This document shows, piece by piece, positions 11,585 to 32,974 of a stretch of 47,990 nt of DNA (position 1 is its first letter; the number at the start of each line of letters is the position of its first letter). The notes beneath the pieces were generated by a model. It was given only the letters and a program-made list of their open reading frames with translations. It was not told the DNA's origin and searched no databases. Position numbers and translations under genes: made by a program. Source of the DNA: a virus; the IMG/VR virus record IMGVR_UViG_3300045051_000258, positions 1-47,990 of that record; one strand, written 5' to 3'.

Positions 11585-11959
11585 TTACGTTGTACTAGTT
11601 GATGTGCTGGTGGAACTGGTTGACGTACTACTCGTACTAGAACTCGTCGAACTAGTACTCGTGCTACTCCACAAAACATCAGCCCATTGTCCGTCTCCAA
11701 CCCACAACTTAACCTTTTGATTGTCTCCGTCCCAATAGATTTTACCTAAGTCGTTTCCTTGAGGTTTAACCCGCAAGTCTTTCAACTTAATCATCCTATT
11801 GAAGAGCATATCATCTAATAATACTTCAAATTGTGCACCTGGAATAAAGTCCGCCTGTTTATTGGCTGCTTCAGGCGTTCTACTTACAAAGGGGTCGAAA
11901 CCTCCTTGCTTCCAGTCTGTGCTATCTTTAATTCTATCTTCTTGTGTGTTATCTTTCAA
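11585..11959 (-). CDS. fibre-module protein with Ser/Thr tail
   Basis: 124 aa. The centre (about residues 50-93) has a KIYWDGDNQKVKLWVGDGQW pattern. The same G..YYD...LYIY.G..W module occurs in the proteins at 32974, 33273 and 33977. It is followed by 30 residues made only of Ser and Thr. No ATG is available near the start; TTG at 11959 is used here, directly after the preceding stop, without a good ribosome site. Likely a virion surface protein whose tail could be glycosylated. Confidence 0.6.
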   Translation of the reverse strand: MKDNTQEDRIKDSTDWKQGGFDPFVSRTPEAANKQADFIPGAQFEVLLDDMLFNRMIKLKDLRVKPQGNDLGKIYWDGDNQKVKLWVGDGQWADVLWSSTSTSSTSSSTSSTSTSSTSTSTSTT

Positions 11960-13487: not shown

Positions 13488-14693
13488 TCACCAGTCCGTC
13501 TCAGAATTTCTCGAAAGGCTTTGACTTCCACCAAATAATCTTGCATCAGCATCTGGCCCTTTGTATCTCCACAGGTTTCTTAATGAGCCCACTTGTTTCT
13601 TCTGCATCATCTTTAAGAGTTCGACTTGTTCTCTAAATATCCTGTCGTATCTATCAGCATTGGTTTCTTCTTTTCGTATCTGGAATATTTGAGCTAAAGC
13701 GTAATCTTCCAACATCGAAGGAATGGGTACTTGAGTGAGGTCTCCATAGCTATCTAAATCAGTAATTATCGTGTAATACTTGGGAATTAAATCAAGTCCT
13801 GCTGTTTCGGGTTTGGGCCAGACTTTTAAGTATCCAGTAGTATTGGTCGAATCTCCTGGGTCAATTGTATAAAACTCTAATTTGTCATCATCTGAGGCAG
13901 TATTGTCTCTACTTTCGTAATCAAACTCTATTCCTGGTAAGTATTTAAGATTGTAATTTGAATCTGTTGAACCACTCACAAATCTATATTTAACAGTACT
14001 CATTCTTCCAAAGTCCGAAGGAAGATTGTAGGTTGATTGAGAGGCCACAGTATCAATCGTTGTACCTGTTTTGAATAGGAACCACCATCTATCATATAGG
14101 GTATAAATCTTGTCTTGTGCTTCATTGAAGTATCTGATTATCTCGGTATCGGAAACGGTCTTACTTTCAGGGTCATTTATGGTTTTTCTGACCTGACGAA
14201 TCATATAACCCACTGAGTTTTTAGCCCATCCTGAAGCAGTAATCGTATCGGAATAGTCCGAATAAGCTGCGTTTTCTGTTGAGTAGTATCTGTACTTCCA
14301 TTGATAGGTACTCGTGGCGGCCGTATCTCTATACTCTGTGTTAATTGCGTCATAATGGAGGTCGGCTGGCATCGACCCGTAGACAGTCCAGCTTCCCGTT
14401 GAGGTTGTGGCGTAGCTTAATTCATATTTATCCCATCTCAAAAAAGTTACAGGAGTTCCTTTAGCGTGAGAATAATTGAGTGAGGCAATAGTTAATGTTG
14501 TTGCATTTCCAGGACTTGCAGTTAAGTGACTTATTTCACTTTTCTCAAGTCCAGGTTCTCCTACCAGAATATAATTACCATTGACAAAAGAGGTCGAAGA
14601 ATCGACATTAAGTGTAGTTCCCGAAGAATAATCTTGGGAAATATTTGTACTTATGTTATCCGACAGGTTCGGATTTCTTATTGATACAACTAT
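13488..14693 (-). CDS. head-tail adaptor-like protein with AUA start
   Basis: 401 aa if started at the ATA at 14693, which lies 8 bases after a perfect AAAGGAGG; no ATG, GTG or TTG occurs in frame until far downstream (TTG at 14441). The region before that TTG is open and protein-like. The middle, VRKTINDPESKTVSDTEI then IRYFNEAQDKI with Trp residues, resembles podovirus adaptor proteins. The ATA directly follows, and is in frame with, the TAA of the 62-aa zinc protein. Stop readthrough giving a 464-aa fusion is the alternative. Confidence 0.6.
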   Translation of the reverse strand: MVVSIRNPNLSDNISTNISQDYSSGTTLNVDSSTSFVNGNYILVGEPGLEKSEISHLTASPGNATTLTIASLNYSHAKGTPVTFLRWDKYELSYATTSTGSWTVYGSMPADLHYDAINTEYRDTAATSTYQWKYRYYSTENAAYSDYSDTITASGWAKNSVGYMIRQVRKTINDPESKTVSDTEIIRYFNEAQDKIYTLYDRWWFLFKTGTTIDTVASQSTYNLPSDFGRMSTVKYRFVSGSTDSNYNLKYLPGIEFDYESRDNTASDDDKLEFYTIDPGDSTNTTGYLKVWPKPETAGLDLIPKYYTIITDLDSYGDLTQVPIPSMLEDYALAQIFQIRKEETNADRYDRIFREQVELLKMMQKKQVGSLRNLWRYKGPDADARLFGGSQSLSRNSETDW

Positions 14694-16184: not shown

Positions 16185-17060
16185 TCAGAAATAGTTCACT
16201 TCACTATACTCAGGATGAGCTTCGTTAATTAAATCCAGTACTCCTTTGAACATAATGGTTGAAGAAGAAGAGCTAGACGAAGTTGAACTCGTTGAAGTTG
16301 AACTTGTGGAACTGGAGGAACTGGAAGTGCTTGTACTAGACGTGCTTGATGATGATGAACTAGTTGAGCTGCTGGTGGAAGAAGTACTAGATGAACTTGT
16401 AGAGTGTGTGGTAGAGGTGGAGGAACTAGACGTAGTATGGGAGGTTGAACTGCTTGTGGAGGATGTTGAAGAACTTGTACTTGAGGTACTCGACGAGGAA
16501 GAAGAACTACTAGATGTGGTCGTTAAGTCATAGGTTACTGTTAATTGTGCACAATCTACTGCACTTCCTGAATAATCAACTGAAGCCATGTTTCCGCTAG
16601 ATGTTCCATTGTCTGCTATTTTAAATCCAATATTCTGCCCCGTAGCCCAACCTGAACGATTAACAATCTCTTGTAATATTGTACTTATATCGGGGCTTGA
16701 CCTTCTCGCAAATGAGAAGGGGAAAACCTGTTCCCATGCCACCGAAGCTGAGGTTGCAGTTCTCGTACCTGGTTCATTTGAGCCATCAGATAAAAAGACG
16801 GCAGCATTATCTTGTGCAAATCCAGTTATAATCATTTTTATCGTAGCCGTACCTGGACTTGCACCAAAACCATATAAATCTATTGTTGCTGATACTATGT
16901 GTGCTTTATAAGGAATGGGGATAGATTCAAAAACAAGACCTATTCTTCCTCCAACTACATAGTCATTATGCCCTCCATCTCCAGTTTGATGCCAATTTGG
17001 GGTATCTCCTGCGTTGTAATAGCCATCTCCTGCGTCTGATGCGATTAAATAACTTGCCAT
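16185..17060 (-). CDS. beta-sandwich protein with Ser/Thr-repeat tail
   Basis: 291 aa. Residues 1-175 look like a carbohydrate-binding or fibre beta-sandwich (ends with VDYSGSAVDCAQLTVTYDLT). Residues about 178-268 are almost purely Ser and Thr in TSSTSSS-type repeats, with a His-containing TSHTTSSSS break. The final 22 residues are ordinary. Probably a virion surface protein with a mucin-like stalk. Confidence 0.6.
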   Translation of the reverse strand: MASYLIASDAGDGYYNAGDTPNWHQTGDGGHNDYVVGGRIGLVFESIPIPYKAHIVSATIDLYGFGASPGTATIKMIITGFAQDNAAVFLSDGSNEPGTRTATSASVAWEQVFPFSFARRSSPDISTILQEIVNRSGWATGQNIGFKIADNGTSSGNMASVDYSGSAVDCAQLTVTYDLTTTSSSSSSSSSTSSTSSSTSSTSSSTSHTTSSSSTSTTHSTSSSSTSSTSSSTSSSSSSTSSTSTSSSSSSTSSTSTSSTSSSSSSSTIMFKGVLDLINEAHPEYSEVNYF

Positions 17061-17996
17061 CTATTCCTCATCCCTTCTATCAATTATTATTATCATATTA
17101 TCTGCCAAATCTAGTCCTTCAGGTTCTTCCCAGATAGTTGAAGTAGAAGAAGAAGATGTACTAGAGGTTGATGTACTTGATGTAGACGAACTTGTGGAAG
17201 ACGTGGAACTTGACGAAGAGGTACTGCTCGTTGACATGGAGCTTGTTGTATAACTGGTACTAGTACTAGAACTTGTCGAGGACGTTGAGGAACTTGTTGA
17301 TGAGGTTGAAGAAGAACTAGAAGTAGAGCTCGTAGAAGATGATGATGAGCTTGTTGTATGACTGGTTGAGCTAGACGAGGACGTGCTTGAGGTAGATGAA
17401 CTAGTTGAAGAAGTGGATGTGCTTGAAGTAGATGTTGAACTTGTACTCAAACTGGAAGATGTACTCGAAGTAGACGAGCTGGTGGAGCTGGTGGATGATG
17501 AAGATGACGAACTTGTGGAACTGGTTGACGTAGAAGTCGTTGTTAAACCGATAAAATATTTAGGAATGGGAAGTTCATACTTCTCGAACCACCAGCAAAG
17601 ATGCACGGGTTTATATTTAAGTAAGAACTCTTCACTAATAAAAGGACTTAATATCCTGTGTAGTCTGTCGGTAAATCTCTCAATTACACGGGCTTTCTTA
17701 TGGATTGGGCAATTACACTTATCAGATATAGTTTTCTCCCATAAATCCTTGTAGAGTTTGCCTATTCGGTAATCAATTGTTATTTCTTGCCCTTTTTTAA
17801 TTCCTTTTGAGTATAGGGTGTGAGTCTGCATATCTCCCTCGTCAGGTTGAACTATAAACGAATTGGGGTTACAGGAGTGATTAAAATAGATAACATCAGG
17901 GGGGTTTCCTGCAAACTTTAATATCTCTGCATAATGGCTGTAATATTTGTCTGCAAAGACTCCTTTTCCGTGTATCTTAGATTTTTTTACAATCAT
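17061..17996 (-). CDS. SET-domain protein with Ser/Thr-repeat tail
   Basis: 311 aa. Residues 1-100 carry SET methyltransferase signatures: HGKGVFA (9-15), NHSCNPN (39-45) and GQEITIDY (69-76), followed by a CNC post-SET-like pair (94-96). SET domains transfer methyl groups from S-adenosylmethionine to lysine. The insert between the first two motifs is very short, so activity is uncertain. Residues about 152-287 are TSSTSSS repeats with a TSHTTSSSS break, then a 24-residue acidic tail. It lies between two other Ser/Thr-repeat genes. Confidence 0.75.
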   Translation of the reverse strand: MIVKKSKIHGKGVFADKYYSHYAEILKFAGNPPDVIYFNHSCNPNSFIVQPDEGDMQTHTLYSKGIKKGQEITIDYRIGKLYKDLWEKTISDKCNCPIHKKARVIERFTDRLHRILSPFISEEFLLKYKPVHLCWWFEKYELPIPKYFIGLTTTSTSTSSTSSSSSSSTSSTSSSTSSTSSSLSTSSTSTSSTSTSSTSSSTSSTSSSSSTSHTTSSSSSSTSSTSSSSSTSSTSSSTSSTSSSTSTSYTTSSMSTSSTSSSSSTSSTSSSTSSTSTSSTSSSSTSTIWEEPEGLDLADNMIIIIDRRDEE

Positions 17997-20572
17997 GTTC
18001 TCTTTCTAATATCAAATGTCAGTGCTTCTCTATCATTTATATCAAATTCCAGAGGTACTGTTTGACTTGTAGAGGATGACATGGAAGTAGATGTGGTGGT
18101 GTTACTAGAGGTGCTGGTAGATGACGTACTTGTTGAACTTGTCGAGGATGAAGTTGAACTTGTGGACGAGCTAGTAGAAGAAGTGCTGGAACTAGATGAA
18201 CTCGTAGAACTGGAACTTGTCGTGTGAGAAGTCGAGGATGATGAGGATGTGCTACTCGTAGAAGAGCTGGAGCTGGTAGACGAGGTAGATGAGGATGTTG
18301 ACGAAGTACTACTTGACGTTGAGCTAGTAGACGAACTAGACGAAGTGGAACTGGTAGAACTTGAGGTTGAGGAGGTGCTTGAACTGCTGCTCGTTGAACT
18401 CGTTGAGGAGCTGGAAGATGTCGAACTTGTGCTTGAGGAAGAACTTGTAGACGACGTAGATGAGCTAGTACTAGATGTGGAAGAGGAGGATGTGCTGGTT
18501 GTTCCTGTTAAAGTTGTTGTGGTTGACGTTGAACTGGACGAACTGGTAGAGGATGTGGAACTAGATGAACTCGTTGAGGAGGTACTACTACTTGTAGACG
18601 AAGTAGAACTGCTTGACGATGAGGTACTTGATGTTGAGCTGGAAGAACTCGTACTACTGGTGCTGGAGGATGTAGAACTCGTGCTTGAGGAAGTTGATGA
18701 GGTGCTGGAACTACTACTGGACGTAGATGAGGTTGAACTACTTGTGGAAGATGTAGATGAAGAAGAGCTGGTTGAGCTGGTAGAGGAAGAGGTCGAACTT
18801 GTGCTTGAGCTTGTGCTGCTAGTCGAAGAACTGGACGATGTCGATGACGTACTGCTACTTGTTGAAGATGTACTTGAGGAAGACGTGGTGTGAGAGGTTG
18901 AACTACTGGAAGAAGTGCTGGAAGTGGAAGAACTTGTGGAAGAAGTACTGCTACTTGTAGAACTGGTGGAACTCGAACTAGAGGTGCTACTCGTACTCGA
19001 ACTAGTGGAACTAGTACTACTGGAACTTGAAGAGGTGCTACTCGTGGAGGAGGAGGTGGAAGATGTAGAGCTGCTGGAGCTGGTTGAGCTTGTTGAAGTT
19101 GAACTGCTGGTTGAAGAGGTGCTGCTACTCGACGAACTGGTAGAACTTGTACTGGAACTTGTAGAACTAGTTGAGGAAGAGGAACTGGTACTACTGGTTG
19201 AACTTGAAGTAGAAGAAGTACTGCTCGATGAACTACTCGTAGAAGATGTGCTACTGCTCGTACTTGAAGTACTGGAACTGGAGGTTGTATGACTTGTGCT
19301 CGAAGAACTAGAAGTCGAAGATGTCGACGAAGATGATGAAGAAGTAGAGCTTGTTGAACTGGAGGTTGAACTTGTTGATGAGCTTGTGGAAGAGGTGCTA
19401 CTGGAACTGGAGGTGGTTGTTGCTGGTGGTGGTGTGTAATCTACCAAAAGCCACAAAGCACTAACTTGTAGCGTTCCTGTTGCATCAGTCGATATTCTTA
19501 CTCCAATTTGAGCAGTATCTAGTGTGGCCTTTGTCCAAGCACTTGAGTCTCCTGGTTGTTCATAATTTGAATTATTATTTATGGCGGGATGATTTCTTGG
19601 GATTGCTATGGCATTCGTAATAAATGTAGTTGCCGAAGTAGACGTCAACTCCCCAGATTCATCTGTTGTTCCCGCTGAAGCCGCTTTTAACCTTACAACC
19701 ATTCCTGGTTCGGCTGCTGTCGTTGAGTTCCATCTAACTCCAACCTGAACAACGTTAATGGTCGCATCAGAAGCTATTCCAGCAGGAGTTGCCTCTAGGG
19801 TCACTTCCTCAACCTGATTAAGAGTCGTTGAACTAACAAAATCAGCGTCATTGGGGGTTACATCATCGAGAGTTGTGTAATCACCTGTCCAATCTACTGC
19901 GTCACCACCCCCGTCAGGTAAGAGATGAACTATTGCCCCATCTCCAGGATAACTGGTTTGGTAAGAACCAGTTGTATCATTTATTGCAAGGTCATCAAAA
20001 TACCAAACACCTGTGGTTTGAGCTTCTGCACCAAGGTTTCCTCCCAATATCCAAATAAAAGGTTGGTTCGTTCCTACGATGTTTCTTGTGGAGGATGATG
20101 CAAAAGCAGCCGCCCCGTCAACTTTAGCCTCAACGACCTGTGAACCACCTGCGGGGGTAGTATCAATGTGCACTTCAATTCTGTACCAAGTTCCTGTAGA
20201 GAGTGTTGTTGTTCCCGCAATCTGGCCATCCTCATCGTAAAGTTTTAATACGCCACCATTATCAACAGTTACATAGACCCCAGGGGTTGCTGTTGAGGCA
20301 AGGTCATTCCACAAAGCGATTCTGTTTTCTGCTGAAGGAAAAGTCGTTGCGTAATAATAAAACCTGAAATATCTATTACTTGTTGCCTCAGAAGCCAGAT
20401 ATGTGTACGACAAAAACCTTGCAGTACCAGATACTAAACCCGTAATTTTATATGAATAAGTTCCGCTTCGGGGATTTGTTGTATCTATAACAGGGGAACC
20501 AGAAGATGAGGTAAACTCAACTTCTGCTGCTGTTGTATTCAATTCGAATCCGCTTGACCAAAGTCTTGCCAT
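17993..20572 (-). CDS. large mucin-like Ser/Thr-repeat fibre protein
   Basis: 859 aa. Residues about 1-230 resemble a concanavalin/LamG-like beta-sandwich (GTWYRIEVHIDTTP, VWYFDDLAIND). A second beta domain runs to about 385. Residues about 388-832 are nearly all Ser and Thr in a TSSTSSS pattern with several SSTSHTTSSSS breaks. The last 24 residues are ordinary (VPLEFDINDREALTFDIRK). Ser codons of both families and all Thr codons are mixed, so the protein pattern, not the DNA repeat, seems to be kept. Likely a long, O-glycosylated fibre stalk. Confidence 0.7.
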   Translation of the reverse strand: MARLWSSGFELNTTAAEVEFTSSSGSPVIDTTNPRSGTYSYKITGLVSGTARFLSYTYLASEATSNRYFRFYYYATTFPSAENRIALWNDLASTATPGVYVTVDNGGVLKLYDEDGQIAGTTTLSTGTWYRIEVHIDTTPAGGSQVVEAKVDGAAAFASSSTRNIVGTNQPFIWILGGNLGAEAQTTGVWYFDDLAINDTTGSYQTSYPGDGAIVHLLPDGGGDAVDWTGDYTTLDDVTPNDADFVSSTTLNQVEEVTLEATPAGIASDATINVVQVGVRWNSTTAAEPGMVVRLKAASAGTTDESGELTSTSATTFITNAIAIPRNHPAINNNSNYEQPGDSSAWTKATLDTAQIGVRISTDATGTLQVSALWLLVDYTPPPATTTSSSSSTSSTSSSTSSTSSSTSSTSSSSSSTSSTSSSSSTSHTTSSSSTSSTSSSTSSTSSSSSSTSSTSSSTSSTSSSSSTSSTSSSTSSTSSSSSSTSSTSSSTSTSSTSSSSSTSSTSSSTSSTSSSSSSTSSTSSSTSSTSSSSSTSSTSSSTSSTSSSTSSTSSSSSTSHTTSSSSTSSTSSSTSSTSSSSSTSSTSSSTSSTSSSTSSTSSSSSTSSTSSSTSSTSSSSSSTSSTSSSTSSTSSSTSSTSSSSSTSSTSSSSSSTSSTSSSTSSTSSSSSTSSTSSSSSTSTTTTLTGTTSTSSSSTSSTSSSTSSTSSSSSTSSTSSSSSTSSTSSSSSTSSTSSSTSSTSSSSSTSSTSSSTSSTSSSTSSTSSSSSTSSTSSSSSTSHTTSSSSTSSSSSSTSSTSSSTSSTSSSTSSTSTSSTSTSSNTTTSTSMSSSTSQTVPLEFDINDREALTFDIRKRT

Positions 20573-20676: not shown

Positions 20677-20832
20677 TCATTCTGAAGTTTGTTTGATTCT
20701 TCCGTAGTAAATCTTAGCTTTATAACATCGGGTACATCTTAAATAAGTTGTCCAATTAAAGAAGATTTTATCTTGGTCTTCCATATAGGGAACCCAATTA
20801 TGTATCCCTAATTTACAGAGAATTCTTTTCAT
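20677..20832 (-). CDS. 51-aa Cys/His protein
   Basis: Begins MKRILCKLGIHNW and has CTRCYKAK later, giving a possible C..H...C..C zinc site seen in many small phage proteins. ATGA-coupled to the glycosyltransferase gene upstream and last before the terminator. Function unknown. Confidence 0.6.
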   Translation of the reverse strand: MKRILCKLGIHNWVPYMEDQDKIFFNWTTYLRCTRCYKAKIYYGRIKQTSE

Positions 20833-21707
20833 TGTGGTATATCAACATAAATTTCTGGCACTCTTGGGTAATTCTTTTTGTCTTTATCTAAACCCCAAAC
20901 ATCAAAACCTTCAGGCCATATCTCTTTTTCATTATTCCAATAATGGTGGTGCGGTGGATGATAATATTTACTTTCAATAGACAGATTTTTTGTTTGACTC
21001 AGGTGATGCCATATCCACGAATAGGTTGTTGAAACGATTCTCAAATTCTTTTGATAGGCTCTCGCCATCATATCGACATCCTCACCCCCACCAGGCCAAT
21101 AATGTTCATCCATTAAACCGACCTCCTCAAACAACTTTCTCTTGAAATAGGGCATAACAAAGATTGACCCATCTATAACATTACCCTTTATTTTTCTAGG
21201 AAATGTCTCAGGCAAGTCTTTATCAGAAAAATCTCCCTCTAATAAATAATTATAGTCTTCTTCTGTATATTCCTCCTTGTAAGGTAAGATATCTGGATTA
21301 TCTTTAACGCCATATCCCCATCCTGGAATTCTTGGACTCATTGGGACAACGCCCACTATTCTTTCATCTAATGCAAATGTTTGCTCTATACCCTCCATCC
21401 ATCGGGAATTTATAATCTCAATATCGTCATTGGCTGGGCATATCAAATCAGTGCCCCAATGGAGTGCGTGGATAATTCCTTCATTCATTCCTTTTGCGTA
21501 GCCAAATTCATAATGTGGGGGATGAATATACAAATGAACTTTATCCTTGATTTCGTCCCACAGCTTCCTACTTATTCCACCATCTACTTGGTCAATATAA
21601 ATAACACGAAAAGAATTAGGCTCCGAATACTTGTACATCGTATAGAACCAACGACTAACAAAGTCCTCCACAATAGGAGCCACTATGTAAGTAACTCTAG
21701 GTTTCAT
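20829..21707 (-). CDS. GT2-like glycosyltransferase
   Basis: 292 aa. GT-A features: an N-terminal YIVAPIVEDFVSRW strand and a nucleotide-binding acidic motif near CPANDDIEI. A later GGGEDVDMMARAYQKNLRI segment matches the ED-containing acceptor/base region of family-2 transferases. Probably transfers a sugar from a nucleotide donor. Part of the 12-kb sugar cassette; donor and acceptor are unknown. Confidence 0.7.
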   Translation of the reverse strand: MKPRVTYIVAPIVEDFVSRWFYTMYKYSEPNSFRVIYIDQVDGGISRKLWDEIKDKVHLYIHPPHYEFGYAKGMNEGIIHALHWGTDLICPANDDIEIINSRWMEGIEQTFALDERIVGVVPMSPRIPGWGYGVKDNPDILPYKEEYTEEDYNYLLEGDFSDKDLPETFPRKIKGNVIDGSIFVMPYFKRKLFEEVGLMDEHYWPGGGEDVDMMARAYQKNLRIVSTTYSWIWHHLSQTKNLSIESKYYHPPHHHYWNNEKEIWPEGFDVWGLDKDKKNYPRVPEIYVDIPQ

Positions 21708-22012
21708 TCTCTTATTGCTTCACCGTCAGGTATTACCTGCAATGTCTCAAAATCTAATTCCCTTTCGTCACCAAATTTGAATCCTAATTTCTCATAGACT
21801 TCTGCATTTGTAATCCATGACTTGTGACCTCCTTTTAAGAGCCAGATTCTATCTCCGTTTCCTCTTACTGGAAGTCCTTTGAACCCTTCTTTGGCTTCGA
21901 CGGGTTTGACTTCTACCCTGGCTTCAGAACTGGCTACAACTTCTCCTGCTTGATTAACGGCTGAATTAACTACTTGTGCTTCTTGTACTGGTGTATCACC
22001 CCAAATTCCTAT
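21704..22012 (-). CDS. hypothetical 102-aa protein with AUA or AUU start
   Basis: An open frame of clear protein character, ending with an ATGA overlap into the glycosyltransferase gene. It contains no ATG, GTG or usable TTG at its 5' end. ATA at 22012 overlaps the previous stop (ATAG) and lies six bases after AAAGGTGG; ATT at 22006 is the alternative. The C-terminal half has a LLKGGHKSWITNAEVYEKL pattern, which I recognise from phage glycosyltransferase neighbourhoods. A decayed start (pseudogene) is possible. Confidence 0.5.
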   Translation of the reverse strand: MGIWGDTPVQEAQVVNSAVNQAGEVVASSEARVEVKPVEAKEGFKGLPVRGNGDRIWLLKGGHKSWITNAEVYEKLGFKFGDERELDFETLQVIPDGEAIRE

Positions 22013-22221
22013 TTGTCCCCACCACCTTTCTGGTCATTAACAAAGTCTTTGTGATATGCAAATATCAAACCAAATTGACAAATACTACACAAGACAACGT
22101 ATTTCTTTCTAAAAGGTAGGTGAATCATAAATCCGCCTTGGCTGATATCGTTTCCACACCTATCACAGACTTTACTTTGTTTGTCTATATAGTTATTTAT
22201 TAGTTTTCTTTTCTTAATCAT
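22009..22221 (-). CDS. 70-aa zinc-ribbon protein
   Basis: CDRCGNDI near residue 19 and CSIC near residue 46 form a four-cysteine zinc site. A Lys/Arg-rich N terminus precedes it. ATGA-coupled to the GT4-like gene upstream. Function unknown; one of several zinc microproteins in this phage. Confidence 0.6.
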   Translation of the reverse strand: MIKKRKLINNYIDKQSKVCDRCGNDISQGGFMIHLPFRKKYVVLCSICQFGLIFAYHKDFVNDQKGGGDK

Positions 22222-23126
22222 TGTCTCACCCCCAGTATCGCCTCATCCAAGTCTTTCAGATATCTTACTTGATTATAGTTATCCTCAATATATTTACGAT
22301 AAATCTCTGGTGTATATTCTGCCTCTGTGAACTTCTCAAGCATTTCTATATAAGAGTTATTAACAAATTGTCCCCAGGTCTCTTTTGCACTCTGCCAGTT
22401 GTTGATTACAGGTTTAATTCCTTTAGCCATAGCCTCTGCTGTGGCGTAACTGAAGGCTTCTTTCGTGCTGGGAAGCAAGAAGTAGTGTTTGTCGTCTAGC
22501 CATTTGTTCATATCTTCTACTCTATCTGGATACCAAACAACAAAGTCTTTAAGTTTCAAGTCTTCTTCTAGGTGTTTGCAGTAGGCGTTGTACTGAGCGT
22601 GAGAAGAATAAGTTCCTCTAACATGAAGTTGCCAGATATACTGTGGTTGTAGCTGTCTAAGGTCGTAGAGCATCTGTAGGGCAATATCGAAGCGTTTAAC
22701 GTCCCAGATACGTCCATCTCCAACTACATAAGCGATACGTCTAATCGGGTCTTTATTTACTTTAGTCTTGAGGGTGAACTTAGTTAAGTCTATACCTGGC
22801 TTGATAATGATTGAAGGGCAGGAGGTGGGAACCATATCCTTAATATGCTGTGCCATGAATATCGCACCTGTGACTTTAGACCAATCAATCGTCTGGGGTT
22901 GATTTGACCACGCCTCTATGTCAACTACCTGAACATACTTTTTGGGGGCTGGGCATTTAAGAACACCGTCTATTGCGGTATTATCCCCCTGATAAAAGAA
23001 GGCTATATCTCCAGTTTCATCCCATTGAGGATTGACTTTAACTTCGTGACCAAGGGACTCCCAGTGTTCTCGGATAGCACCAGAAAATTTGAGGTTCCAA
23101 CTGTCGAACAATAAAATCTTACTCAT
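22218..23126 (-). CDS. GT4-like glycosyltransferase
   Basis: 302 aa, GT-B type. The C-terminal Rossmann half is clearest: YVVGDGRIWDVKRFDIALQ as the donor-domain first strand, then a LLPSTKEAFSYATAEAMAKG segment matching the E-x7-E nucleotide-sugar motif of family 4. The N-terminal half is shorter than in typical 370-aa members. Likely cytoplasmic, building a glycan with the other enzymes in the cassette. Confidence 0.7.
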   Translation of the reverse strand: MSKILLFDSWNLKFSGAIREHWESLGHEVKVNPQWDETGDIAFFYQGDNTAIDGVLKCPAPKKYVQVVDIEAWSNQPQTIDWSKVTGAIFMAQHIKDMVPTSCPSIIIKPGIDLTKFTLKTKVNKDPIRRIAYVVGDGRIWDVKRFDIALQMLYDLRQLQPQYIWQLHVRGTYSSHAQYNAYCKHLEEDLKLKDFVVWYPDRVEDMNKWLDDKHYFLLPSTKEAFSYATAEAMAKGIKPVINNWQSAKETWGQFVNNSYIEMLEKFTEAEYTPEIYRKYIEDNYNQVRYLKDLDEAILGVRQ

Positions 23127-23148
23127 AACAGCTCTTTACAGTATTATC

Positions 23149-23697
23149 TCACGAAATTATCTTTCTGGCAATGACGTGAACTGCCGTGGGGGGTTTGTCT
23201 TTTTGCTCATAAGTTGTATAAACCTCATCTACTCTAAGGGGCAAAAGGTCCTTCCAAACATTTTCTGGTTTAATGTGATTATTAGGTGCTGGGTCATATC
23301 CTTCCCCCACTATCGACATAACCGCAATTCCCCCTGGTTTAAGCATTCTATAAATCTGTTGAAAGGCTTCTTTCTTGTGGTCAAGGTACTCATAAACTCC
23401 AATCATGACGATACAGTCATAAGTGTTGTCTGGTATAGAATCACAGGTTTCTATACTCCTATTGTGAGTTGGAGCGGGTTGGTCTCCTCCGCCTGGATGA
23501 GTGTCCATTGTTTCGTAATCCATAAGTTTGGCGGGGTTATTGAAGAGACAAGAGTAGTCCCAGTATTTATGTACGCCTACATTTAAAACTTTACCAACAT
23601 CAGGAAGCGTCTGAATTACACGAGGGAGAAGCTCTTTATTTATAAAAGCTCGTCCTAAACTGATATTTCCGAAGTCACGATACAATTGATGATTCAT
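23149..23697 (-). CDS. class I SAM methyltransferase-like protein
   Basis: 182 aa. A VLNVGVHKYWDY strand-loop stands where the GxGxG SAM loop lies, and YDCIVMIGVYEYLDHKKEA plus MLKPGG are typical methyltransferase motif III/IV elements. The glycine loop is degenerate. Probably methylates a sugar or is a decayed relative. Overlaps the deacetylase gene by 23 bases. Confidence 0.6.
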   Translation of the reverse strand: MNHQLYRDFGNISLGRAFINKELLPRVIQTLPDVGKVLNVGVHKYWDYSCLFNNPAKLMDYETMDTHPGGGDQPAPTHNRSIETCDSIPDNTYDCIVMIGVYEYLDHKKEAFQQIYRMLKPGGIAVMSIVGEGYDPAPNNHIKPENVWKDLLPLRVDEVYTTYEQKDKPPTAVHVIARKIIS

Positions 23698-24244
23698 TTA
23701 GTTTCTTAAGTAATTCTATCATTTTCGGGAATTGTATCATCTCATCTTGCTTCCAAGAATGAAAATAGACTGAGTGCCCAGACCACTTTCCACCCCTAGC
23801 CAACTCGGTCTCTACTTCTCTAATAAACTTTGCAATATCGTTAGATTCATTATCCAACTTTAGTCCCATATAGTTAGCGGCTTTCTCCATTGTGTTGCTA
23901 AACCTATTCCAAGGTGGATACCAAACAGTAGCCTGAGTATTGAAGTATTTTCTTATAAAATGTTGGCAGGCGGCCAAATCTCGGACTATAAAGTCGTATT
24001 CCATTTCATCGTAAGCAAAATGCCCCCAGCCATGAATCTGTATGCTAAATGAATCCTTATTAGCATTTATGTAATTCACAATTTCTTCGGGTACATTGCA
24101 AAGTCTACCCCATTGAGTAAACTGCATATTGGCAGTTTCTATTAAGCCAGCCTTCTTAAACTCCTCATGCACGGCAATATACTGGGCTGGTTCTAGCCTC
24201 AGGTCATAATCGTCTGAACGGCACACAATTTTATCTGTATTCAT
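23675..24244 (-). CDS. polysaccharide deacetylase-like protein
   Basis: 189 aa from ATG at 24244; the frame extends upstream to 24295 but that part overlaps the HNH gene. CRSDDYD resembles NodB motif 1 (two Asp). HGWGH gives the H-x3-H metal site, and WYPPWNR resembles motif 3. Family members remove acetyl groups from amino sugars using a metal ion. A plausible step in making the phage glycan. Confidence 0.65.
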   Translation of the reverse strand: MNTDKIVCRSDDYDLRLEPAQYIAVHEEFKKAGLIETANMQFTQWGRLCNVPEEIVNYINANKDSFSIQIHGWGHFAYDEMEYDFIVRDLAACQHFIRKYFNTQATVWYPPWNRFSNTMEKAANYMGLKLDNESNDIAKFIREVETELARGGKWSGHSVYFHSWKQDEMIQFPKMIELLKKLNESSIVS

Positions 24245-24737
24245 ATACGTTTTTGAAAACCCATCTACTGTGTACTTTAGCATGACAACTAACACAAAGA
24301 ACTATTAAATTATCAGGGTCATTATTTAGTGGTTTACCCAAATCTCCATTGTTTCCGTCTATATGGTGTATAGCTAAACACCTACTGTGGTCAGTTGAGT
24401 AACCCATACCGCATAGATAGCATTTAGCCCCAATGGTTGTAATACTTTCTCCATATTGTTTTTTCTCAGTCCACCTTCTTTTAAGGAAAGCTCTTTTGTC
24501 ATTATCTCTTTTAGAGATTGCTTTTCTTTTCTCTGGATTATCTTTACACCACTTAAGAGCCTTTTTCATTAACTCTTCTTTGTGTTCAAGATAGTATTGG
24601 TCTTTATATTCTTTTATTTTTTCTTTATTTTTAGATGCATATACTTTTGCTTGGGCACGAATTTTCTCTCTATTCTTGAGATAGTATTTTTTATCACTTA
24701 TTCTTTTTCTTTCTTTGTAAGTTAATTTAGTGTTCAT
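24231..24737 (-). CDS. HNH homing-type endonuclease
   Basis: 168 aa. Lys/Arg/Tyr-rich repeats fill residues 1-85 (KKYYLKNREKIRAQAK type). They are followed by CYLCG, HHIDGNNGD and LCVSCHAKVH, a treble-clef HNH nuclease. It overlaps both neighbours (11 and 14 bases), as free-standing homing endonucleases do after invading an operon. It resembles the HNH protein at 33434 in layout. Not part of glycan synthesis. Confidence 0.85.
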   Translation of the reverse strand: MNTKLTYKERKRISDKKYYLKNREKIRAQAKVYASKNKEKIKEYKDQYYLEHKEELMKKALKWCKDNPEKRKAISKRDNDKRAFLKRRWTEKKQYGESITTIGAKCYLCGMGYSTDHSRCLAIHHIDGNNGDLGKPLNNDPDNLIVLCVSCHAKVHSRWVFKNVYEYR

Positions 24738-25476
24738 TTAATCTTTTTTTCTCTGCGTTACCTCTCTGAATCCATTTAAAGTCAGCCTTTCTCCAAACGC
24801 CACCAAGTTCAATTACCATACTAGCTATGTGATTCCCTGTAATTGTAGTACAAACATAATCGGGATGCGTAGCACAAAACATCTCATATCCTAAATCCGT
24901 CTTATCCCTGCACCATTCTGGCAGAGGTTCTTCTCTTAATCCTACCCAGTTTCCCAAAACAGCCATTTCGTAATCGTGGCGAAGATATAATCCTCCCTTT
25001 GAAATATACTTATCAGCATTCCTTAAAATAAAATCCCCTACCATTTCCCGTTGAGCTCCATCGTTGATAATTAAATCAAATTGTCCTCCAGCTTCCTCTA
25101 TTGACCTAGAATACGAGAGGTCTGGGTCTAAAACTGTTGTGTAGTTCTCGTCCGCAGGGTGATAGATTAACTTTACATTCTTAGCTCCGACCTTTTCTAA
25201 TTCCTTAGTGATAGTTTCGTACCACCAGGGATTGCCCTCAACTGAGACGATTTCGTTATCGGGAAAATTGATTGCCCACCAAATTGTAGTACAGCCACTT
25301 CCATATTCAAATATCCTAGCTTTACGTTCAAATGTATCCTCGAAGTTCTCTATAAAATATGTTTGATAATTTAAGGCAAAGTTGGATTGGCGAAGATAAT
25401 ATCTTCGAGGTTCTTCTCCAATGGTATATTGCCATCTTGACGAATCTTCCACGTTCAACTCCCATTTACGTCTCAT
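24727..25476 (-). CDS. SAM-dependent methyltransferase-like protein
   Basis: 249 aa. ARIFEYGSGCTTIWWA (about residues 53-67) is the SAM-binding strand and loop (ExGxGxxT). IVSVEGNPWWYETI supplies the acidic second strand and FDLIINDGAQR the motif III region. This layout is common in phage and bacterial sugar O-methyltransferases. Probably acts in the sugar cassette. Confidence 0.7.
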   Translation of the reverse strand: MRRKWELNVEDSSRWQYTIGEEPRRYYLRQSNFALNYQTYFIENFEDTFERKARIFEYGSGCTTIWWAINFPDNEIVSVEGNPWWYETITKELEKVGAKNVKLIYHPADENYTTVLDPDLSYSRSIEEAGGQFDLIINDGAQREMVGDFILRNADKYISKGGLYLRHDYEMAVLGNWVGLREEPLPEWCRDKTDLGYEMFCATHPDYVCTTITGNHIASMVIELGGVWRKADFKWIQRGNAEKKRLNEH

Positions 25477-25853
25477 ATAAACACTTTATCCTCTCTAAAT
25501 GGGCCATTTTTAACCTCAAACATCATACAGTCCTCCGTTACCTCTACCTCATGTGCACCAAATATATGTAAATAAATATCTCCCGCTTTCAAAGTCATTG
25601 TCTTAAAAGGTGTTTTATTTAGCCCGAATAACTTAAATTTAACCTTTCCTTTTTGAACCACGAAACACTCGTTCAATTCTTCTGTTGTTCTCATAAGTGG
25701 AGCGTGGTAATGGGCTCCGCAATGATAACCCTTCTTGTGATTCCAGGTTAATATCTGAAGCGGATTTTTAACATCGGTTTGGGGAACGGAACCTTTAGCC
25801 CAATTCTTTACTAAAATCCCTATTAACCTCTCGTTGTGATATATTTTTTGCAT
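25473..25853 (-). CDS. cupin-fold protein
   Basis: 126 aa from ATG at 25853, whose A is shared with the preceding TGA; a TTG at 25871 is less likely. GAHYHAPLMRTTEELNECF fits cupin motif 1 (G..xHxH...E), and LKAGDIYLHIFGAHEVEV fits motif 2. Cupins in such clusters are often sugar epimerases or isomerases, or lipocalin-like binding proteins. The exact reaction is unknown. Confidence 0.65.
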   Translation of the reverse strand: MQKIYHNERLIGILVKNWAKGSVPQTDVKNPLQILTWNHKKGYHCGAHYHAPLMRTTEELNECFVVQKGKVKFKLFGLNKTPFKTMTLKAGDIYLHIFGAHEVEVTEDCMMFEVKNGPFREDKVFI

Positions 25854-26515
25854 CAATAGTATTTTTCCCAATCTTCCTCGTGGCCATTTTTATGGCTTCC
25901 AAGGTGAATCAGATAATTGTTCATTATACTTAAATTCTTCTTAAACTTATAACCCTTTTTTATTAGGGTCGAGTAATATTCACAACCAATATCTTGCGAT
26001 AGGGCTCTGTTGGCTTTAAAGTTCATATTAAATTTATGATAAAGGTCGCCCCTGAAGGCAAAGAACCAACTCGCTAAAGCTGGTGTTCCCTCTCGTGTCC
26101 AATTATCACCTGAACCGCAGTAGGTATTGTCAATATCATTAAAGACATATTCTAGTAAGCCCTCTTTATTTATTCTGCAATCTGTACTTAAATGAACTAC
26201 CCATTTCGCATGGATAAACTGCATGGCGTGGGTAATCGCCAATCCATGACCTGTACTTTCTCCTACTGTTTGTTCTTTTGAAATGTAACAGGAGTTTGGA
26301 TAATCTATTAGTTTCTGCGAATCTGGGTCAAGACTATCCCAACCCTTGTTGTAGACCTGCTTCCACCGTGAAACATCTCCTGGTTTTCCTTTGTCATCCA
26401 TAAAATAAATGGGGATATTGGGATAGTATTTTCTTAAACTATCAGCAGCGTGAACGGCATGAGTAGCCGTCATCCAAGTCGGTATTAAGCAAACAATATC
26501 TTTAGGTACGTTCAT
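25853..26515 (-). CDS. GT2-like glycosyltransferase
   Basis: 220 aa. CLIPTWMTATHAVHAADSLR starts a GT-A fold, IPIYFMDDKG gives an acidic strand end, and HLSTDCRINKEGL holds the DxD-like motif. AFRGDLYHKFN and DIGCEYYSTLIKKGYKF match the later acceptor region. Shorter than typical GT2 domains but complete in core motifs. Adjacent to three methyltransferases. Confidence 0.65.
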   Translation of the reverse strand: MNVPKDIVCLIPTWMTATHAVHAADSLRKYYPNIPIYFMDDKGKPGDVSRWKQVYNKGWDSLDPDSQKLIDYPNSCYISKEQTVGESTGHGLAITHAMQFIHAKWVVHLSTDCRINKEGLLEYVFNDIDNTYCGSGDNWTREGTPALASWFFAFRGDLYHKFNMNFKANRALSQDIGCEYYSTLIKKGYKFKKNLSIMNNYLIHLGSHKNGHEEDWEKYY

Positions 26516-27075
26516 TTTCTTGTAATTTTAGCTGTATGACATTTAGTCTCAATCTTCCAGATTCCCTGTTCTTTCAATTCGTCGAGAAACTCCATTACTC
26601 CGTTTCCTGCCATTCCCTGAAAATCATAGTCATGGAGGAAGACTACCTCGGCAAATTCAATAAAATGGTCAAAGTCATGTCTTACTCCGTCAAGGGTATG
26701 GTCTGCGTCAATAAATAGAACATTAACGGGGTAAGACCATTCAATGTCTTGTGAATTACCGACAATCTGAACTACGTTTTTAAGTCCTCTGCTTTCAATA
26801 TAGCCTTTCGTTTGAAGAAATCCTCTTACATCAAATTGACCATGACTAAAATATTGAGGAATTGTCCCGTATTCTCCAAACCCATCAACTGTGTAAATTG
26901 TCCATTCTGGCTTTAATTGGCTGAAAAATACTGCCGAGTGACCATAACCCGTGCCTATTTCCAGCAAGTTTCCTTTATCGGGAAGTTTAGAAATCGTCTC
27001 GTACATGAACTCAGCGTCCTCTGGGAAGATTGCTGATTGGTCGTTAATGAAAATGTTTATTTCTTTTTTCTCCAT
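26512..27075 (-). CDS. class I methyltransferase (tandem paralogue 1)
   Basis: 187 aa. LLEIGTGYGHSAVF (37-50) is the SAM loop, WTIYTVDGFGEYG the acidic strand, and VLFIDADHTLDGVRHDFDHF the metal-binding DxDH motif of the Methyltransf_24/cephalosporin-hydroxylase-like family. Very similar to the next two genes, so this is a local triplication. Probably sugar O-methylation. Confidence 0.75.
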   Translation of the reverse strand: MEKKEINIFINDQSAIFPEDAEFMYETISKLPDKGNLLEIGTGYGHSAVFFSQLKPEWTIYTVDGFGEYGTIPQYFSHGQFDVRGFLQTKGYIESRGLKNVVQIVGNSQDIEWSYPVNVLFIDADHTLDGVRHDFDHFIEFAEVVFLHDYDFQGMAGNGVMEFLDELKEQGIWKIETKCHTAKITRK

Positions 27076-27599
27076 ATTGCAACAGTTTTTTTATCTTCTG
27101 GAATTTCGGCTCCAATTTCATCCAGCAATTGTTTAACCCCATCCCAGTTTGCATCATGAAAAAGAATAACCCCGCCTTTCTTGAGAAAAGGGCTAAATCT
27201 CTCAAAATCACTCTTAACAAATTCATAATCATGGTTACCATCAATAAATATTGCATCTATCGGAATATTCCAAGGGATTTTGGTACTATCTCCAATTATT
27301 TGTAAAATATTACTTGCCCCCCATGTTTCAAAATATTTTGCTACATCAAACATATCATTTAAAACAACTTTCTTTCCGTGTATGACCTCGTAATATTCTC
27401 CATAAAAGTCGACGGTAAAAACAATCCAGTCTGGTTTAACTCGACTAAAAAAGGTAGCTGAATGCCCATATCCTGTACCTATTTCTAACATTGCTCCCTT
27501 TTGAGGTAATTTGATTAACTCTTCATAAAAGACTTCGCCTTCAAGAGGTGTAATCATACTAGCGGTGTTCAAACAGTTAAGAGCTTCGTCTTTTGTCAT
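27057..27599 (-). CDS. class I methyltransferase (tandem paralogue 2)
   Basis: 180 aa. MLEIGTGYGHSATFF (38-52), IVFTVDFYGEYYEVIHG and AIFIDGNHDYEFVKSDFERF show the same motifs and spacing as the neighbour at 26512, with which it overlaps by 19 bases. Copies have diverged, especially around the substrate region, suggesting different methylation positions. Confidence 0.75.
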   Translation of the reverse strand: MTKDEALNCLNTASMITPLEGEVFYEELIKLPQKGAMLEIGTGYGHSATFFSRVKPDWIVFTVDFYGEYYEVIHGKKVVLNDMFDVAKYFETWGASNILQIIGDSTKIPWNIPIDAIFIDGNHDYEFVKSDFERFSPFLKKGGVILFHDANWDGVKQLLDEIGAEIPEDKKTVAIWRKKK

Positions 27600-28141
27600 A
27601 TTTTTTCAATAATAGCCATACCAACCTTTTTATCATCATGAAGTCCAAACGGAACGTCTAATAATTTAAGTTTAATGTTTGTAGAATCAATTGCTTTCTG
27701 AGCATCTTCTCCATACCAATAATAATCGTGGAGAAGGATAGTCGACCCCTTCTTAACAAACTTACCCCAATTATTGATATCGTCCAACATTCCTTTTACT
27801 GAATGAAGTCCGTCTATAAAAAGTAAATCAATTGATTCATCCCAGTCCAAAACAGCATTATTAGAAGTATCTCCTATAAAATGAACCCTATCGAGAAGTC
27901 CCAGTTCCATCCTTTTACTCAAGAAGTTTTTATTCTCAATGGGGTCAATCGTCCAGACTCTAACAGATGGTTTACTGGCAAGAGCCATAATAAAGGCTGA
28001 GTTTCCAGCAGCCGTGCCTATATCTACAATTATCCCGCCATCGGGAACTTTGGAAGCAAATTCATGGAGTACCTCTTTTTCTTTAAGAGGCATAGTTGTG
28101 GTTATTTTTTCAATTTTTTCGTAAACTCGTGAAAACCTCAT
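27596..28141 (-). CDS. class I methyltransferase (tandem paralogue 3)
   Basis: 181 aa. IIVDIGTAAGNSAFIM (37-52) and LLFIDGLHSVKGMLDDINN place it in the same family as the two genes downstream, but it is the most divergent of the three. ATGA-coupled to both neighbours. Confidence 0.7.
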   Translation of the reverse strand: MRFSRVYEKIEKITTTMPLKEKEVLHEFASKVPDGGIIVDIGTAAGNSAFIMALASKPSVRVWTIDPIENKNFLSKRMELGLLDRVHFIGDTSNNAVLDWDESIDLLFIDGLHSVKGMLDDINNWGKFVKKGSTILLHDYYWYGEDAQKAIDSTNIKLKLLDVPFGLHDDKKVGMAIIEKI

Positions 28142-28695
28142 ATCTTATAAAATATAGCTATAAAAGTAACTCCGTCTATAATTGACCAGTATTCCTGCCA
28201 GTGTTTGTCTATGAAAAGTTCTCTGACCTTGTTTGGGGTATCAAATACCGAGTGATGAGTTGAATCTTTGTCTGCCTGGATATCTCCGTTTACCTCAATT
28301 AAATGTTCTGCCCCAAAAGGAACCGACATTATGATGAACTTTTTGACCTTTTTCTTTAACTTCTTAACAAACGCTTTGGGGTCATATAAGTGTTCAAGAT
28401 TCTCAAATTGAACAGCCACATCACACTTAGGGATGTTCCATTTCTCCAAATCCTCACAAATAAAGTCAGTGTTGTCTCTACTATGCTTGTCTCTACAACA
28501 AGCAATATTAGAAGGTTCCAAATCGACTCCCAATACATGTAGAGCTACTTCTGAAAGAATTTCTGTGCCGTATCCTGTGCCACAACCTAAATCGAGTACG
28601 TTGTCCCCAACGTCCACAAAACCTTTAGCCAGATGATATCTAAACCTATGGAACCTAGTTCTTCCATCTGCTAAATCGTCTTTTTCTGCATTCAT
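28138..28695 (-). CDS. class I SAM methyltransferase (Methyltransf_11/25 type)
   Basis: 185 aa. NVLDLGCGTGYGTEIL (32-47) is a textbook SAM loop, HVLGVDLEPSNIAC the acidic strand and CDVAVQFENLEHLYDPKAF the motif III region. A different subfamily from the three paralogues next to it. Substrate unknown; a sugar or a small metabolite is likely from context. Confidence 0.8.
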   Translation of the reverse strand: MNAEKDDLADGRTRFHRFRYHLAKGFVDVGDNVLDLGCGTGYGTEILSEVALHVLGVDLEPSNIACCRDKHSRDNTDFICEDLEKWNIPKCDVAVQFENLEHLYDPKAFVKKLKKKVKKFIIMSVPFGAEHLIEVNGDIQADKDSTHHSVFDTPNKVRELFIDKHWQEYWSIIDGVTFIAIFYKI

Positions 28696-28703
28696 TGCGT
28701 AGC

Positions 28704-29420
28704 CTATATTTCTATCCCTGTACCCTTTCTAATTTCCTCTTTATCATTATGATAGATTGGCCAGACTGGATTATGTCCTGATTCAGTGTTTTTGTAGCCC
28801 CACATATCTTCATCGTCACGTCCCCAAAGATGATAACAGTGTAATTTTGGAGACCACCCCATTTTGAATCCTCTCTCGGCAAACTTCTCTCCAACCCACA
28901 TTTCTTCATGTCCCCGAAGTGGACGTTTATCATTCCAAGCTCCAGTTTCTTTCACGAGGTCTGTTCTCATAATTCTTGCATACCCTGGCACATGGGGGAA
29001 GGGAACCACTTCATCTTCGGTATCAAACATGGCAAGACTGGTTCCTACTAATGTCTGGGGTCTTAAAGCAATTGCTCCATAATCAGGGTATTTGTCCATC
29101 AACCCGACGAGTTGTGATAACCAGTCGGGGTCATATTTATAGGGGAGGATATCATTATCCATAGATACGAATAAAGGACTTTCTACAAACTGCATACCGA
29201 TATTCTTGGCATATTCTAGTCCGTAGTTTTTATCCAACTTCACATAAACATCTGCCTGTGCTGCATATCTGGTTCTTGAATTACCATTACTTCCACTGTC
29301 TACTAAAATGACTCTGTGAGGGGTTTGGGTATTAAAGGCGACAACATTTAAACAGAGGTCGGTCATCCATTCACGATTCCACGTAGTAACAACGATATCT
29401 AAAGGTTTGTCTTGTCCCAT
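28704..29420 (-). CDS. GT2 glycosyltransferase
   Basis: 238 aa. DIVVTTWNREWMTDLCLNV opens the GT-A fold, LVDSGSNG follows, MDNDILPY supplies the DxD metal motif, and HEEMWVGEKFAERGFKMGW is the ED-containing acceptor motif. Well-preserved family-2 enzyme. Overlaps the upstream GT2 gene by 22 bases, suggesting that the two act in sequence. Confidence 0.8.
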   Translation of the reverse strand: MGQDKPLDIVVTTWNREWMTDLCLNVVAFNTQTPHRVILVDSGSNGNSRTRYAAQADVYVKLDKNYGLEYAKNIGMQFVESPLFVSMDNDILPYKYDPDWLSQLVGLMDKYPDYGAIALRPQTLVGTSLAMFDTEDEVVPFPHVPGYARIMRTDLVKETGAWNDKRPLRGHEEMWVGEKFAERGFKMGWSPKLHCYHLWGRDDEDMWGYKNTESGHNPVWPIYHNDKEEIRKGTGIEI

Positions 29421-30232
29421 CTTGGTGTCTTCCCTGGGTCTACCACATAGTCAGGGTCATCGGGAAGTCTATGACCCCAACGGGAATGAACAAAATAGGG
29501 TGCTGCGTTTAATTTTTTAGCTTTGAATTTGCGAGTCATCTTGTACCAGTAGTAATAGTCCTGCCCCCAGGGATTCCCCAGAGAATTATATTGTCCAGGT
29601 TCTCCTGGCTTCTCAAAGAATTGCTTAATCTCTGGAAACTCCTCAAACGCTTTGTCGGCAAAATCCCACAATCCCAGTTCAGGCATCGGGCCAATCTCTT
29701 CATAAACAGACCTGTGGAATACGAATGAACCAGCTCCGATATGTCCAGACCCAAAAGGTTTATCTCCTTGTTCATCCATGTCCATAAACTCCCTGATATA
29801 GGGTTTGTAGTCGTACCCGAAGATTAAATGATTGAAATTGAATATCTTGTAATCAGGATAAATCTTAATAGCGTCATCTAGCATCTGGAGGTAAGTAGAG
29901 GCGTACTCGTCATCTGCATCCAACCAACAAATCCAATCTCCAGTTGAAGCGGCCATTGCAGCGTTTTGAGCTATAATTCTTCCCGATTTTTCGGGCAAAA
30001 GAACACTCTTTACTTGTAATCCCCTTGGTTTCCACCAACTATCAATATCCTCTAAAACCGATTCAACCGAGGGATTGCTTACATCATCAGCTATAACCCA
30101 TTCCCAATCTGTAAATGTTTGAGTGAAAACTGAATTGGCACACCTTAAAAACATCTCATAACGGGGCATTCTGAGATTGTCAGCATTGTCTTTGTCGTAC
30201 GTAACTGGTGTCGTCACACTGAATTTTGGCAT
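29399..30232 (-). CDS. GT2 glycosyltransferase
   Basis: 277 aa. FSVTTPVTYDKDN, WVIADDVSNPSVESVL and WICWLDADDEYASTYL show donor-binding Asp residues and the DxD motif of family 2. The C-terminal half is aromatic-rich (WGQDYYYWYKM), probably the acceptor site. Abuts the UDP-glucose dehydrogenase-like gene. Confidence 0.8.
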   Translation of the reverse strand: MPKFSVTTPVTYDKDNADNLRMPRYEMFLRCANSVFTQTFTDWEWVIADDVSNPSVESVLEDIDSWWKPRGLQVKSVLLPEKSGRIIAQNAAMAASTGDWICWLDADDEYASTYLQMLDDAIKIYPDYKIFNFNHLIFGYDYKPYIREFMDMDEQGDKPFGSGHIGAGSFVFHRSVYEEIGPMPELGLWDFADKAFEEFPEIKQFFEKPGEPGQYNSLGNPWGQDYYYWYKMTRKFKAKKLNAAPYFVHSRWGHRLPDDPDYVVDPGKTPRWDKTNL

Positions 30233-32651: not shown

Positions 32652-32974
32652 ATTGTATCGTTTTCTAAACCTGGGCCTGTAAACCCATCTGCTTCTGATA
32701 ATCCATCTACTGATATAGATTTAGTCAAATTGGCACTTTGAACTCCAAACTTACCCCCTGGAAAAACTGCCTTAGTTGGAGTCTTGTGGACCTTAGCAAC
32801 TACAGCATCTTTTTTTAATTCTGGTGCAAAATCGAAAGATAGAGGTAAGACTTCCTTTAAGTGTTCGTAGAGTCCATCCTCAACTTGCAAGGGTTTATTT
32901 GCCACGAGAACATAATCAAATCCTTCAAAAGGCCTAACTAAATCTTGTTTCTCTTTATTTATGATTATTTGCAT
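32648..32974 (-). CDS. hypothetical 108-aa virion-region protein
   Basis: Short N-terminal beta strand (QIIINKEKQDLVRPFEGF) followed by mixed sequence, ending KSISVDGLSEADGFTGPG. No Ser/Thr tail and no catalytic motif. Sits between the Ser/Thr-tailed 100-aa gene and a small beta protein, so a structural role is likely. Confidence 0.5.
   Translation of the reverse strand: MQIIINKEKQDLVRPFEGFDYVLVANKPLQVEDGLYEHLKEVLPLSFDFAPELKKDAVVAKVHKTPTKAVFPGGKFGVQSANLTKSISVDGLSEADGFTGPGLENDTI

Follow-up and report, generated by a model that had tools for sequence, protein, structure and literature searches.

SET proteins encoded by phages, a viral SET protein packaged in a particle and the glycosylation of phage virions are each already known. 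The chlorovirus PBCV-1 packages its SET protein, vSET, in the virion (PMC7019647), and to regard a packaged SET enzyme at the locus described here as without precedent, rather than unusual as in the original prediction, would therefore be too strong. Similarly, there is precedent for glycans located at the C-termini of virion proteins (PMC12619734), and glycosylated virions have been reported for the mycobacteriophage Che8 and others (Freeman et al., 2023, as cited in PMC12619734 and PMC11256854).

The window analyzed here is the whole IMG/VR record IMGVR_UViG_3300045051_000258, a linear stretch of 47,990 bp which is perhaps a fragment. It encodes a 311-aa protein (17061-17996, minus strand), identified by Pfam and by its motifs, in which a SET domain is fused to a long Ser/Thr tract. 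The reading which we favor, with a probability of about 0.4, is that of a late, probably O-glycosylated and virion-associated SET protein which would methylate lysine residues inside the infected cell.

Genomic context of the SET gene

The terminase, portal, capsid and SU10-type adaptor genes annotated in the window identify a tailed phage. These genes are all located on the minus strand and encode the terminase large subunit (40179-41678), the portal protein (37999-40179), the major capsid protein (34571-35482) and, in the tail module, the SU10-type adaptor (13488-14441). The SET gene is found on the same strand as the structural genes, in a late gene block, between two genes which also encode Ser/Thr-tailed proteins. 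The upstream gene (17993-20572, minus strand) encodes a fiber-like protein composed of a 384-aa head, homologous to a "minor tail protein" of Streptomyces phages, and of a 452-aa Ser/Thr tract, while the downstream gene (16185-17060, minus strand) encodes a 179-aa head followed by an 89-aa Ser/Thr tract. The ATG of the SET gene overlaps the stop codon of the fiber-like gene (ATGA) and its own stop codon abuts the ATG of the downstream gene (TAGATG), so that the three genes form one tightly packed block. With both neighbors Ser/Thr-tailed and one of them homologous to a minor tail protein, the predicted location of the SET gene among fiber and tail genes was borne out.

The window starts with a GGAGTN-type repeat (1-105) which encodes Gly-Val repeats, and this end of the record is thus probably a repeat-limited assembly break. 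Two HNH endonuclease genes, which are probably mobile insertions, are found at 24231-24737, within the glycan cluster described below, and at 33434-33919, between two Ser/Thr-tailed genes.

Ser/Thr tails and their codons

The SET fusion protein is composed of a head (approximately residues 1-100), a 50-residue linker, a Ser/Thr tract (residues 152-287; 17136-17543, minus strand) and a 24-aa acidic and hydrophobic C-terminal end (17064-17135, minus strand). In the tract, 132 of the 136 residues are Ser or Thr, encoded by randomized codons, and the tract accounts for 44% of the protein, in full agreement with the mucin-like tail originally proposed. Such tails are present on six proteins in the window: three around SET, two whose genes immediately follow that of the capsid protein and a last one which is short. 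The first of the two small post-capsid proteins (33977-34396, minus strand) has a YYDT..LYIYDGSQW head and an 82-aa Ser/Thr tail, and the other (32974-33276, minus strand) a 44-aa Ser/Thr tail which is conserved in relatives. In the sixth protein (11585-11959, minus strand), the tract is short (27 aa).

All ten Ser/Thr codons occur within the tracts, and identical amino-acid 14-mers share 53.95% DNA identity, for an expected value of 53.97% under random codon choice. Randomized tract codons were also found in three other phages, in tracts of 819, 1,128 and 1,565 residues, while in the related phage G001, DNA identity within the tract is slightly over expectation (0.68 vs. 0.61). The saturation of synonymous sites, together with a constant Ser/Thr protein, indicates strong protein-level selection on the tracts, and the randomization of codons argues against slippage of repeats or a repeat-driven misassembly. 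A DNA repeat or a shadow ORF as the origin of the tails was likewise ruled out by the randomized use of all ten codons. Two other possible features of the tails were not retained. A C-terminal motif shared after the tract (PEGLDLADN / PLEFDINDR) reached a best p value of 0.03 among 12 shuffle comparisons, which is non-significant, and the autocorrelation expected at lag 7 for a regular Thr heptad is weak (0.08 in the SET tail and 0.31 in the 17993-20572 protein).

Giant mucin-like proteins, composed of an N-terminus of ~23-29 residues followed by 819-1,565 near-pure Ser/Thr residues with randomized codons, are encoded at L228:12303-17123 (G016), L232:4392-8156 (G021) and L227:9724-12480 (G013), in each case adjoining a fiber-like Ser/Thr protein.

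Linkage of the tails to a glycosyltransferase family

The tracts are genomically linked not only to virion genes but also to a glycosyltransferase family. In the window, this enzyme is a family A3 glycosyltransferase (31002-32309, minus strand), the most conserved member of a glycan-modification cluster and, we infer, a candidate initiating O-glycosyltransferase. The rest of the cluster (20829-31005, minus strand) encodes four further glycosyltransferases, a short UDP-glucose dehydrogenase, a polysaccharide deacetylase and several small methyltransferases. The UDP-glucose dehydrogenase-like enzyme (30232-31005) is only 257 aa long, its usual C-terminal domain is missing, and this short form is conserved in relatives at 55-73% identity. 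A relative of the glycosyltransferase encoded at 20829-21707 (L206:527-2542, in G002) contains an in-frame intein with a LAGLIDADG domain (Pfam).

Relatives of the window phage were gathered by their terminase (65-76% identity). They keep the order of the cluster of glycosyltransferase, UDP-glucose dehydrogenase, sugar-methyltransferase and deacetylase genes, and both post-capsid proteins have Ser/Thr tails wherever that region is sequenced. SET is absent from these terminase-matched relatives. In G001, sequence is available for the whole interval from the cluster to the adaptor, which encodes a 456-aa Ser/Thr protein and a large tail-spike-like protein rich in repeats. The absence of SET from this interval indicates that the SET gene is accessory.

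The head of the 17993-20572 protein is common to nine other records. Three of them have Ser/Thr tails and are the same three which possess the glycosyltransferase set, whereas the other six have no tail or Ser-Pro tails and all lack this set. Between the window and one of the three tailed records (G013), neither the terminase nor the portal or capsid gene is detectably shared. Including the window, tracts and glycosyltransferases thus agree in 10 out of 10 records (four with, six without), that is 1 in 210 by exact count, a figure which assumes independent records while these are only partly so. In L218, L220 and L221, whose genomes have no linked glycosyltransferases, Ser-Pro-rich (SxSPSxS) tails take the place of Ser/Thr tails on homologs of this head or on a neighboring protein, an alternative tail chemistry.

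A larger test started from the most conserved glycosyltransferase: 80 viral loci with a gene for this enzyme were scanned within 10 kb for Ser/Thr tracts. Tracts were found at 62 of these loci (127 tracts in all) and at none of 187 control loci unmatched for genome position (0/92 viral and 0/95 cellular). The 127 carriers are of virion type or unknown. Most of them are small and have a head of the form "GDxYYDTTTNxLYVYDGxxW", while a few have LamG-like, CBM96-like or unknown heads. Neither enzyme domains nor further SETs were detected among these carriers, which makes SET the sole enzymatic head seen on a Ser/Thr tail. The SET-Ser/Thr fusion is also a single instance, no SET being present in the relatives or in the other glycosyltransferase-bearing phages examined.

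Motifs and predicted fold of the SET head

The three motifs on which the original prediction was built are present in the head exactly as described: HGKGVFA (residues 9-15; 17952-17972), the SET-N SAM-binding motif; NHSCNPN (residues 39-45; 17862-17882), the SET-C SAM-binding motif; and GQEITIDY (residues 69-76; 17769-17792), which contains the catalytic Tyr76, all on the minus strand. With an E-value of 5e-8, the head exceeds the curated cut-off of the Pfam SET profile (PF00856), of which it matches the second half only; the first-half GKGVFA is nonetheless present. AlphaFold models of residues 1-150 were obtained from two different alignments, with mean pLDDT of 76.5 and 70.1. Confidence is concentrated in the first 80 residues, with block-mean pLDDT of 72-95 in the first model save for one block at 65, while the C-terminal region was not improved in the second model, derived from the mixed alignment. 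Both models match vSET and MLL1/MLL-family SET domains in the PDB with a Foldseek probability of 1.00, PBCV-1 vSET being the best PDB fold match of the first model, and both predict a SET (beta-clip/knot) fold for the head.

The head keeps 10/10 columns invariant in the compact set and 8/8 columns invariant in the mixed set, including N39, H40, P44, N45, E71 and Y76, the latter being invariant in both alignments, a conservation which is partly a product of the motif-based collection of the compared SETs. The catalytic Tyr and all residues of the SAM motifs are thus in place within a core which is well predicted over residues 1-80, and the original assignment of a SET domain stands in this respect.

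In contrast to cellular relatives, the head is short. About 29-30 residues separate GKG from NHSC. The GxG-NHS spacing is mostly 31-32 residues in viral SETs collected by motif patterns, and 50-66 residues in cellular SETs which share the FNHSCNPN motif and were gathered by DNA pattern. The head is therefore compact and devoid of the SET-I insert and hairpin, a substrate-wall segment whose loss leaves about 30 residues fewer than in cellular relatives. The same shortening of SET-I is seen in the phage family phrog_34170. Neither this shortening nor the genome-wide linkage of Ser/Thr tails to glycosyltransferases was part of the original prediction. In addition, a CNC motif (residues 94-96; 17709-17717, minus strand) is a remnant of the post-SET zinc site. 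Three of the four zinc cysteines are present (C42, C94 and C96) and the fourth is replaced (CNCPIHKK), although a nearby His could substitute for it.

Regarding the affiliation of the head, profile scores are too close to separate cellular SETs (53.7 bits) from compact phage SETs (50.7 bits), and the FastTree node uniting the head with cellular SETs has a support of only 0.36. The match to the PHROG profile of phrog_34170 is weak (E=3.5e-4), and the window SET is not placed with this family in a weakly supported tree. Exact peptide patterns searched in IMG/VR and tblastn against annotated phages yielded no homolog of the head. A search of viral contigs with the FNHSCNPN DNA pattern gave a single match, in L002, which is antisense to another gene and was discarded as a chance occurrence.

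Compact SETs in podophage tail modules

The compact phage SETs are members of phrog_34170 and are cupin-SET proteins. The domain at their N-terminus gives matches to two families, the "short tail fiber protein" phrog_12032 (2.6e-34) and the "tail fiber adhesin" phrog_24280 (6.9e-26), these tail-fiber labels of the cupin partner being homology annotations. In the cultured Rhodoferax phage P26218, the cupin-SET AKA60333 is encoded one small gene downstream of a gp10-like tail protein, and two Manatee Spring podophages encode a cupin-SET near the stabilization protein. In IMG/VR, 65 out of 82 compact-SET loci have P26218-like tail-module neighbors, including gp10 in 56. The compact cupin-SETs of podophage tail modules probably form one orthologous family. 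The cupin-compact SET in the P26218 tail module (L429:6962-7837) is annotated as hypothetical, and no virion proteomics for the cupin partner of tail-module SETs was found in the literature searched.

As a check for the bias of motif-based collection, five tail-module SETs were picked by homology of their cupin part. They keep the same SAM and catalytic sites with some exceptions, namely the replacement of the motif-final Asn by Ser in P26218 and an NHA variant or a Cys in others. These data bear on the main rival to the favored reading, in which the SET head has lost its methyltransferase function and serves on a fiber-like appendage as a compact beta-clip module with a binding or structural role. 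Virion proteins with beta-clip domains do exist, lambda gpD being an example; the other Ser/Thr carriers (127 carriers and their head clusters) showed no enzyme domain, and the window head has lost the SET-I wall and the fourth post-SET Cys. However, the window head retains all of GxG, NHSxxPN and the catalytic Tyr, and the cupin-SETs picked without motif bias largely do so, while full retention of these motifs is not expected from a purely structural domain. We thus consider this possibility unlikely, although it is the strongest of the alternatives.

Proposed role of the SET protein

Virion association of the SET protein is supported indirectly by several lines of evidence: 1) Ser/Thr tails are present on virion-type proteins here and in related phages, 2) the SET gene overlaps a fiber gene in one late block and 3) cultured P22-like podophages encode similarly compact SETs in their tail module. 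Since the same tail is present on the particle proteins of this virus group, beside sugar-attaching enzymes, the SET domain probably rides on the virus particle.

In the mechanism which we propose, the compact SET head would be carried by the same Ser/Thr tail as the capsid-proximal and fiber proteins of the phage. This tail would be a substrate of the phage's own glycosylation cluster in the producer cell, with the 31002-32309 enzyme as the likely initiating O-glycosyltransferase. Before release, inside the infected cell, the SET head would bind SAM and methylate lysine residues, most likely on virion proteins which are co-expressed and assembled with the SET protein. The latter would then leave on the particle as a glycosylated appendage. 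Against this reading, the SET-I/hairpin, which is one wall of the lysine channel, is missing and the fourth post-SET Cys is replaced; the fusion is seen once and, as judged from gene content, SET is accessory.

The SET protein could also be a cytosolic late enzyme, absent from the particle, whose methylation of host or phage proteins would serve takeover or regulation, the tail being only a tag or a solubility element. SAM is present in the cytosol, and the window head resembles the post-SET SETs of many bacteria and archaea. Yet the gene is located within the structural block and the tail is common to capsid-proximal and fiber proteins, which leads us to regard this explanation as rather improbable. 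A further proposal, made in the original prediction, was that a virion-displayed enzyme might act from outside on the next host, by methylating its envelope proteins. A surface location would be likely by analogy with the other Ser/Thr-tailed proteins, but SAM is an intracellular cofactor, absent outside cells, which would allow at most one turnover per bound SAM, and such an activity is thus very unlikely. Finally, an artefact arising from low-complexity DNA, misassembly or a chance ORF, as might be suspected for a low-complexity protein known from a single contig and one example of fusion, has a negligible probability given the lack of long exact DNA repeats in the gene block, the random codons combined with a constant protein composition, the intact overlapping reading frames and a SET match well above the Pfam cut-off.

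If the favored reading of a glycosylated, virion-associated SET protein is correct, phage particles bear long brushes of O-glycosylated Ser/Thr, which a dedicated glycosyltransferase produces, and a protein methyltransferase is also carried on the particles of some phages. Mucin-type tails and SET methylation, which are usually eukaryotic topics, would then be linked to bacteriophage virions. More tentatively, and with doubt, tailed phages may possess virion-borne SET methyltransferases in a broader sense, compact SETs having been recruited at least twice onto particle proteins, i.e., the short-tail-fiber-like cupin of podophages and a mucin-like glycosylated Ser/Thr appendage. Under this broader reading, the Ser/Thr tails and the dedicated glycosyltransferase found in a wider set of phages would constitute a bacteriophage mucin system. 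Rhodoferax phage P26218 offers a ready cultured experimental system for the tail-module SET.

Comparison with known systems

In the open-licence literature searched, no description was found of a SET domain on a Ser/Thr tail, of a glycosyltransferase-linked Ser/Thr tail system or of compact SETs fixed in the podophage tail module, which is weak evidence of novelty in each case. PBCV-1 vSET (A612L), a chlorovirus histone H3K27 methyltransferase, is a small viral SET like the window head, with ~25% identity in the fold alignment. It functions in a eukaryotic setting with histones and has no Ser/Thr tail, whereas the window protein has one, and the GKG-to-NHS segment of the window head is ~18 residues shorter than that of vSET. 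The ~170-aa post-SET SETs of Omnitrophota, Woesearchaeota, Pacearchaeota and Patescibacteria share with the window head an NHSCNPNSFI-type core, the CxC motif and a helical C-terminus. These bacterial and archaeal proteins have the SET-I/hairpin and the fourth Cys and no Ser/Thr tail, while the opposite holds for the window protein.

The phrog_34170 proteins (e.g., AKA60333) are equally compact, with a GxG-NHS segment of 31-32 residues for 29-30 in the window SET. Like the latter, they are phage-encoded, located in a tail gene module and fused to a virion-type domain. Their partner is a cupin/short-tail-fiber domain, they have no post-SET CxC and they belong to a P22-like tail module, whereas the window SET begins at residue 1, without such an N-terminal domain, and has a Ser/Thr tail as its partner.

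Regarding glycosylation, mycobacteriophages, as represented in the papers which cite the original study, possess phage-encoded glycosyltransferases linked to virion proteins, as does the window phage group. The latter differs by near-pure Ser/Thr tracts carried by several proteins, with lengths of 27-452 aa in the window and a maximum of 1,565 aa in one relative, and by a larger sugar-modification cluster.
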